64,000 nucleotides of DNA from positions 248,001 to 312,000 of the forward strand of contig NC_037325.1 in the NCBI RefSeq assembly GCF_000143535.2, given 5' to 3'. Origin of the DNA: Botrytis cinerea B05.10. Lineage: Eukaryota > Ascomycota > Leotiomycetes > Helotiales > Sclerotiniaceae. Made by a program: the position numbers and the translations under genes. Numbering within the stretch: the first letter of the stretch is position 1; every line of letters starts with the position of its first letter. A model generated the notes under the pieces. It was not told where the DNA came from, did not search any database, and saw nothing but the letters and a program-made list of their open reading frames with translations. Shown piece after piece: positions 41,231 through 42,877 of the stretch.

Positions 41231-41346
41231 CATTCACATTCACATTCACATTCACATTCACATTCACATTCACATTCACATTCACATTCACATTCACATT
41301 CACATTCACATTCACATTCACATTCACATTCACATTCACATTCACA
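41231..41346. repeat. CATTCA hexamer minisatellite
   Basis: About nineteen near-perfect tandem copies of CATTCA span 116 bp. It is the longest pure array in the window and shares the CATTCA core with the octamer array 550 bp upstream, which suggests a common origin by slippage. Confidence 0.95.
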
Positions 41347-41808: not shown

Positions 41809-42877
41809 TTAGATTTCCTCCATTGTACCCGCTGCCTCTTCATTATCATCGTCGTCGTCGAAACTAGCTACCGAGGACATGGTATCATCATCTGATTCGT
41901 CGGCGCCCGCATCGTCTGCTGCGTCTTTGCTTGCGTATTTCGTTACATATTCTATACATTATCAGCTCCCGTCCCATCTACTCTCAGAATCCTTCTCTAC
42001 AACCCCCAAAAATACACACCTTTAACCTTTAGATCATACGCTTTCGAATCCCTCATAAGTAGTGCGGCGGCCTCTCCATTGAGCGGATCGGTTGGATTTG
42101 GATACCTAAGTAATTGTGGAAGGAACACTTCGAAGATGTTGATCATATCGAACATTGGCGACCAAGTTTGATTTATAACATCGAGACACACGGAACCGGA
42201 TCTACAAAGATAGTCTCAGTAAGTAATCTGTTCCACCGTGTAGGCGGTGGGGAAAGGGCCTACAACTCATCGATATTGGGGTGAAAGATGCGGTTTACGA
42301 AGCCGATGCTGGGGGATTTGTAGGGGTATTGATCTGGAAGTTCGACGTGAATTTTCCAGAGTCCGCCTTCGAATGGTGCTGCGAGAGTAGCGGTTAGTTT
42401 ATGTTTTTGGGAGGAAGGAATGAGGGAGAGGAGGGGAAGTGAACTAACTCTCTGCTGGTCCCTTGAAGCGGACATAGAACTCTTGCCTATTATTGTCATT
42501 ATATGAGTGGCTGATTCCAAAGTTCTCCTCAACATATTACATACACTAGATCAAAGGTTAGAACTTCTGCAGGCCACATGGGACTCCCGCCAACTTACTA
42601 TTGTCATTCACAAGAGTCACCTCATAATCCGACATCAACCTATACTCCTGGTAAGCACTGAAGCATAAATCAATCGGACTGGCTGTGAAGTGGTGTCGCA
42701 TACATCCTATAATCACACTGTTAGCTAGAGATCCTCGAAAAAATAACTTCTCCAATCATAGATACTGACTTCATGACCTATATACCCAAAACCAGACATT
42801 AGTCTTTCAACTCATCCACGTAATGACTATGGGATACTACTTACATCAGTCTCGATCCTCCGTCTAGGACTAGACAT
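41809..42877 (-). CDS. ubc8: Ubiquitin-conjugating enzyme E2, Ubc8/UBE2H type, with micro-exons
   Basis: An E2 that carries ubiquitin on a catalytic cysteine; the yeast orthologue works with the GID ligase to degrade gluconeogenic enzymes. My model has nine exons: 42877-42845, 42777-42770 (8 nt), 42706-42704 (3 nt), 42639-42599, 42545 (1 nt), 42486-42449, 42378-42264, 42201-42020, 41951-41809. This yields 187 residues. The start is [11 protein letters not shown]; micro-exons supply VMK, M and a split Met codon (A|T|G) before QEFYVRF. The catalytic block [13 protein letters not shown] puts Cys at 85, as in yeast Ubc8. HPNID and the acidic C-terminal tail (ADESDDD...) are typical. All eight introns (53-130 bp at most, mainly 53-70) have GT and AG ends. 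Skipping the 1-nt exon shifts the frame. The E2 identity is certain; the micro-exons are inferred from splice signals and homology. Confidence 0.95.
42557..42561 (-). promoter_or_regulatory. CTAAC branch site of the intron preceding the 1-nt exon
   Basis: A perfect fungal branch-site core, CTAAC, lies 11 nt before the TAG acceptor at 42548-42546. Together with the GTAAGT donor at 42598 it shows that the 53-bp intron ending just before the single T (42545) is well formed. Confidence 0.75.

Follow-up and report, generated by a model that had tools for sequence, protein, structure and literature searches.

The window, by which we mean the whole 64,000-nucleotide stretch of DNA analyzed, covers bases 248001-312000 of contig 16 in the 18-contig, 42,630,066-base genome of Botrytis cinerea B05.10. 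On its minus strand, frame and translation define ubc8, a gene with nine coding exons that sum to 564 nt and encode a product of 187 residues. The first 86 coding bases are split over exons of 33, 8, 3, 41, and 1 nt with five introns. Exon 1 (42845..42877, 33 nt) provides 11 residues, and exon 2 (42770..42777, 8 nt, GTCATGAA) gives V-M-K, residues that align to yeast Ubc8. Exon 3 (42704..42706) is a 3-nt micro-exon, GAT, which gives Met15 in VMKMLMSD, and exon 4 (42599..42639, 41 nt) ends in AAT A. Between the 53-nt intron 4 (42546..42598) and the 58-nt intron 5 (42487..42544) lies a predicted exon 5 consisting of a single T (42545..42545), which would fill the second position of the ATG for Met29. 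Exon 6 (42449..42486, 38 nt) is followed by exon 7 (42264..42378, 115 nt), exon 8 (42020..42201, 182 nt), which holds the catalytic Cys85 in GSVCLDV, and exon 9 (41809..41951, 143 nt), which encodes an acidic tail and runs to the stop codon. An earlier note on this DNA had given a coding length of 564 nt and placed the catalytic Cys at residue 85, both of which are borne out; its exon numbering implied two small exons upstream, and these were found as the 8-nt exon 2 and the 3-nt exon 3. From FYVRFKG to the end, the model is identical to the B. cinerea T4 entry P0003. Downstream of ubc8, at about 41300-41345 of the window, there is a run of GTGAAT repeats.

The ubc8 product carries a UQ_con domain (PF00179; 3.9e-39). 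Among solved structures, it matches yeast Ubc8 (8pmq_E, 7.1e-72) and human UBE2H (8pjn_2, 1e-64) best, followed by 2z5d_A (2.4e-63), 2onu_A (3.2e-62), and 1yf9_A (5.1e-55), with other E2s starting from 5.1e-27. Cys85 is the single Cys of the product and aligns within GSIKLDV and GTVKLDV of chains 8pmq_E and 8pjn_2, both of which have Lys at that position. With a UBC fold domain, an active-site Cys, and Ubc8 and UBE2H as its closest solved relatives, the protein belongs to the Ubc8/UBE2H family. The alignment with 8pmq_E is gap-free over residues 1-155 and includes VMKLLMSD and NDSMQEF, the latter being the pattern that the earlier note had given for yeast Ubc8. The positions of Met15 and Met29, which derive from the 3-nt and the 1-nt exon, respectively, are therefore both present in yeast.

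Exon 4 ends ...AATGACAATA at 42599 and is followed by a GTAAGT donor from 42598. Intron 4 contains TCTAACC, whose branch A lies 12 nt before the 3' end, and terminates in CTAG. The T at 42545 stands directly between this canonical acceptor and a canonical donor, in the order CTAG|T|GTATGT. Intron 5 has a weak branch site and ends AATAATAG, after which exon 6 begins with GCAAGAGTTC. Met29 is assembled from the A of exon 4, the T at 42545, and the G of exon 6. The earlier note had proposed this same arrangement. Its coordinates for the T and for both introns are correct, the CTAAC branch site that it described is present within TCTAACC, and translation agrees that A, T, and G form one Met codon joining NDN to QEF. 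Its claim that treating the two introns as one 112-nt intron shifts the frame also holds, with 563 nt remaining when the T is skipped. When intron 4 is read through, a stop is reached (TTC TAA). Both the reading frame and the family sequence NDNMQEF need the T. The mRNA junction expected with the T included is ATGCAAGAG, or, as a longer string, GACAATATGCAAGAG; the competing junction strings GACAATAGCAAGAG, GACAATAAGTTC, and GACAATAGTAAGCAAGAG are not those of an mRNA with the 1-nt exon. The observation itself is confirmed, and a single-nucleotide exon is very probably the right interpretation of it. We predict with high confidence, from the sequence, that the T at 42545 is a constitutive 1-nt exon of ubc8, a UBE2H-family E2.

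Splice sites were scored against 62 reference introns. To infer these, long open frames were joined across 200 kb of this genome, plus the window and eight short loci, and ubc8 was excluded. These introns have a median length of 62 nt, and 5 of the 62 are at least 112 nt long. A looser training of the matrices, on 179 introns, had shifted toward AAG and GAG acceptors, and the stricter set was used in its place. Relative to the 62 introns, the donor, acceptor, and branch site of intron 4 lie at the 94th, 97th, and 55th percentiles, and those of intron 5 at the 29th, 37th, and 2nd; the summed scores are 24.1 and 15.7, respectively. We enumerated the joins from NDN to QEF that use one GT-AG intron or two, each 40 nt or longer, stay in frame, and are free of stops. 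Among the 12 solutions, the 1-nt exon ranks first (15.7 for its weaker intron), and none of the others yields NDNMQEF. The reading put forward earlier is thus supported as the best-scoring in-frame solution and the sole one that gives the family sequence. The runners-up score 13.2 (NDNKFYVRF), 10.0 (NDNSNFYVRF), and 7.1 (NDNSKQEF).

The first of these runners-up has one 117-nt intron (42598-42482) with its acceptor inside GCAAG. It is in frame, with the second-best score of 13.2, and is the annotated form of B. cinerea T4 (P0003); NDNKFYV also occurs in 13 of the named entries listed in the homologue searches described below. However, none of the 62 reference introns has an acceptor that scores as low, one K takes the place of the M-Q-E that yeast keeps, and the AG|T|GT traces in relatives are left without explanation, so that we consider this reading very unlikely. 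NDNSKQEF results from a single intron with a GTTGGC donor at 42594, which the earlier note had named as the alternative to be weighed against its own reading. This solution is also in frame, and SK precedes QEF in 10 of the listed named entries. Its donor scores -0.9, below all 62 reference introns, but this low score is not decisive by itself, because intron 7 of ubc8 likewise uses a donor below all 62 (1.4; intron total, 8.6). Intron 3 is weak as well, with a donor at the 2nd percentile and a total of 12.9, and scores alone therefore cannot settle a gene model here. Nevertheless, its total is 7.1, whereas even the weaker of the two introns in the 1-nt solution has 15.7, and its product has one residue more than yeast; use of the 42594 donor is extremely improbable.

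Two adjacent introns in a fungus are also the setting of the stwintrons described in PMC5639578, in which a splice element of an external intron is split by an internal one and nothing is left between them. Of 15 nested in-frame solutions, none gave NDNMQEF, and only 2 had a composite donor or acceptor, both with the same 11-residue reading. Moreover, the donors and acceptors of both ubc8 introns are intact without the other. On these nested solutions, scored for split donors and acceptors, the ubc8 pair does not class as a stwintron, and we give that explanation almost no weight. The likeness lies in two neighboring fungal introns that would be removed in succession; stwintrons, as described there, have a split splice element and leave nothing in the mRNA, whereas in ubc8 one base would be left (PMC5639578).

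To estimate how often such an arrangement arises by chance, we shuffled the 112-nt region 20,000 times, preserving dinucleotides and holding the first 6 and last 3 bases fixed. An AG-N-GT split that left about 40 nt or more on each side appeared in 2,744 of the 20,000 shuffles. The observed splice-site score was reached in 35, with T as the base in 8 of those 35. Among the inferred introns of at least 90 nt in the same genome, an AG-N-GT split at the observed score was found in 0 of 15.

The earlier note had suggested a comparison of this intron pair in other Leotiomycetes. Homologue searches, each limited to the best 120 of more than 5,600 matches, gave 203 different proteins, which we sorted by source and name into three groups: 55 that lack an organism name, 136 from named Pezizomycotina, and 12 others. 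Most of the 55 lie on contigs of 0.9-3.6 kb, with one on a 7.3-kb contig and one for which no length is given; as they code all or most of the protein unbroken, they are probably spliced transcripts. All 55 of these listed entries have Met at the site, as do ten fungal entries outside the Pezizomycotina (Saitoella, Dipodascopsis, Mortierella and kin, chytrids, and similar). Among the 136 listed named Pezizomycotina entries, NDNMQEF or an equivalent occurs in 16 (including P0105) and is missing from 120. Twenty named entries have M before QEF, of which P0023, P0094, P0175, and P0186 were excluded for the extra residue in NDNSMQEF. Wrong forms among the listed named entries include NDNKFYV (13), NDNSKQEF (10), NDNRQEF (6), and many longer insertions, and the stretch is missing altogether in a few, such as P0068, P0086, and P0114. 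P0017, P0040, P0051, and P0090, among others, are irregular as well.

Mistranslated intron residues in these protein gene models allow the DNA of the relatives to be inferred in part. On this basis, 41 of the 120 divergent entries fit AG|T|GT, 2 contradict it, and 77 are uninformative. The 41 fall into four kinds. In the first, intron 4 is spliced and intron 5 is read, so that Met is followed by a residue for which a T-starting codon is possible; this holds in 18 of 20 entries. At the second position there are 15 Tyr, 2 Phe, and 1 Ser, and the 15 of 20 with Tyr compare with a background of 0.035 in the rest of the segments (p 2e-18, with species not independent). Seven of these entries run to AG|G and so display whole introns of 57-75 nt, five with names of Eurotiomycetes (P0133, P0135, P0144, P0168, and P0169) and two with names of Dothideomycetes (P0148 and P0193). 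In the second kind, intron 5 is spliced from the T, leaving Val before QEF, and the preceding residue has an A-ending codon in 13 of 13 entries. P0081, a fourteenth Val entry, was counted with the first kind; P0052 needs an AAG acceptor, and P0021 and P0029 were judged from the residue before V. Six of the Val entries (P0099, P0132, P0141, P0146, P0165, and P0184) start with Ser and therefore hold the whole of intron 4, which measures 54-81 nt. The B. cinerea entry P0029 has DLV before QEF, which corresponds to a splice from the donor right after the T at 42545.

In the third kind, both introns are read through, and 5 of 5 entries are compatible with AG|T|GTATG: P0084, P0085, P0100, and P0195 from Fusarium and P0150 from Aspergillus niger (for example, HQCMP corresponds to CAG|T|GTATGCC). 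Their intron pairs measure 47+52, 49+56, and 56+67 nt. The fourth kind has the donor shifted by four, then the T, then GTN, which gives Ser-x-Val in P0069, P0118, P0142, P0153, and P0174; a sixth match, P0141, was counted among the Val entries. Across the 18 entries in which whole introns could be measured, these are 47-81 nt long. The two contradicting entries, P0061 (Mollisiaceae, NDNMHP) and P0154 (Emmonsia, NDNMPN), do not fit a T followed by GT, and may have a non-GT donor, another acceptor, or a lost exon.

By name, the 41 fitting entries belong to the Leotiomycetes, Sordariomycetes, Dothideomycetes, Eurotiomycetes, Lecanoromycetes, Coniocybomycetes, Geoglossomycetes, and Pezizomycetes; six of the names were checked, the Pezizomycetes are represented by one Val-type entry (Morchella snyderi), and Thelocarpon was left without a class. 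Because the species are related, p values overstate the case, but the breadth over classes does not. The comparison that had been suggested thus gave 41 traces for the exon and 2 against it among the 120 divergent protein entries, with Leotiomycetes among those in favor. The 1-nt exon is probably common to many filamentous ascomycetes and widely present in the Pezizomycotina, and it looks ancient because the fitting entries span eight classes. The same comparison bears on the reading of the T as a sequencing error or part of a decayed gene copy. In other strains and genera, too, entries depart from the expected sequence at this position and carry this trace, and in B05.10 all other exons are intact and the frame is fully open; nothing was found in favor of error or decay, and its probability is negligible.

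One of the divergent forms has the right length. NDNRQEF, with Arg for Met, occurs in six entries from five species (P0002, P0007, P0013, P0031, P0082, and P0156). When the modeled mRNA was aligned to the genome as a single intron with one mismatch, the mismatch fell on the T in 6 of 6 alignments, with the genome having the G of AG. Since a mismatch on the T turns Met into Arg, NDNRQEF would represent a T-containing transcript forced onto one intron. The Monilinia fructicola gene models, which are among these entries, are described as curated with RNA-seq support (PMC8070815). NDNRQEF was considered as contrary evidence and set aside on the grounds of this probable origin. A 13-nt near-repeat between the end of exon 4 (42596-42608) and the end of intron 5 (42488-42500) was also considered, as a trace of tandem duplication, and was rejected. 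The likeness drifts in related Botrytis entries: those of B. fragariae and B. porri (P0004 and P0015) have NVNNR and NDHNR where B. cinerea DNA would read NDNNR, so that the near-repeat is probably due to chance.

The neighboring micro-exon GAT (42706-42704, minus strand) is flanked by introns of 63 and 64 nt. Splice scores in this genome do not favor it over one 130-nt intron (12.9 versus 15.3), and the case for the 3-nt exon is accordingly one of comparison. Its residue, Met15, is kept in 47 of the 47 classifiable entries among the 55 listed without an organism name. The 136 listed named entries divide into 34 without the residue (VMKLMSD), 12 with VMKMY, as if running into GTATG after GAT, 47 that keep it, 34 otherwise altered, and 9 unclassified. 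This suggests that the 3-nt exon is also widely shared in the Pezizomycotina. The corresponding mRNA strings are AAGATGTTGATG with the 3-nt exon and AAGTTGATG without it.

A U1-bound donor and an engaged acceptor that lie one base apart would overlap, so that exon definition is hardly possible. Guo and Liu argue alike for APC11, where exon definition would hardly be able to act (PMC4674806). We infer that intron definition would remove introns 4 and 5 of ubc8 in succession, since an acceptor could hardly be occupied at the same time as a donor one base away. Intron 4, which has the stronger sites, would probably go first, with either order possible. Intron 5 would then leave from a donor reading TAT|GTATGT, which scores about as before (7.2 versus 7.6 with the looser matrices), and the T would keep the frame into the catalytic domain. 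The 1-nt exon would date to an early Pezizomycotina ancestor, together with the neighboring 3-nt exon, and would have survived because losing the base breaks a housekeeping protein. As judged from the homologues, the antiquity of both exons is likely. A more speculative role for the small exons is that of a splicing checkpoint. Both exons, present in the Pezizomycotina ancestor, might have been kept not by inertia alone but because slow or condition-dependent intron removal, with skipping that puts the message out of frame, sets Ubc8 output; we regard this proposal as doubtful.

The earlier note had called one-nucleotide exons very rare, which stands, and had cited a published case in APC11; the published set is larger. 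Such exons in protein-coding nuclear genes are reported for APC11 (PMC4674806), VPS55 (PMC8831610), and CYP621A (PMC12940212), and the snoRNA host transcripts of Candida parapsilosis, C. orthopsilosis, and L. elongisporus are also reported to have introns separated by single-base exons (PMC5033589). Arabidopsis APC11, for which intron definition and recursive splicing were proposed, resembles ubc8 in that one base lies between two introns, is constitutive, is needed for the frame, and belongs to a gene of the ubiquitin system; it differs in that the base is A, in having been demonstrated with cDNA and GFP constructs, and in being a plant gene that is not homologous to ubc8 (PMC4674806). In land plants, the VPS55 and APC11 exons are described as conserved over a wide clade and missing from reference annotations, with wrong proteins as the result, and in this they are like the ubc8 exon; unlike it, they are plant exons with RNA-seq and RT-PCR support, and VPS55 inclusion varies in some plants (PMC8831610). 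Organelle cases, in which the machinery differs, include a fungal mitogenome in which group II introns flank a one-nucleotide exon (PMC12308204) and placozoan cox1.

A fungal parallel is CYP621A, whose 1-nt exon is reported in 20 Fusarium orthologues with 18 SRA reads and was presented as the first for a fungal gene (PMC12940212). Both exons are fungal, both fall at the second position of a codon within a conserved motif, and both suffer the same annotation failure. In contrast to ubc8, the CYP621A base is a G in AG|G|GT, is known from one genus, belongs to a P450 of unknown function and not to a core E2, and is supported by RNA reads. In light of the Candida single-base exons, the claim of fungal firstness needs to be qualified (PMC5033589). 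A search of the open-licence literature on micro-exons in Botrytis, Aspergillus, and Fusarium, on fungal Ubc8 introns, and on 1-nt exons found no report of an exon of this kind in ubc8, which is apparently a new and deeply conserved case of a very rare exon type. Confirmation would bring a core housekeeping gene into this set, with an exon that is apparently shared throughout a subphylum that has many sequenced genomes and several genetic model species. The gene would then be a tractable case for studying how an exon that leaves no room for exon definition is dealt with by the spliceosome, and a conserved E2 would prove to be wrong in most of the listed named Pezizomycotina entries (120 of 136 lack the expected junction). 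The Candida transcripts share with ubc8 spliceosomal introns one base apart in a fungus, with a processing route that has RNA-seq support there; they differ in carrying intronic snoRNAs and in having clusters with nested or zero-nucleotide (recursive) splicing as well, whereas the ubc8 base lies in a coding frame (PMC5033589). These snoRNA host transcripts are a possible yeast model for the same mechanism (PMC5033589).
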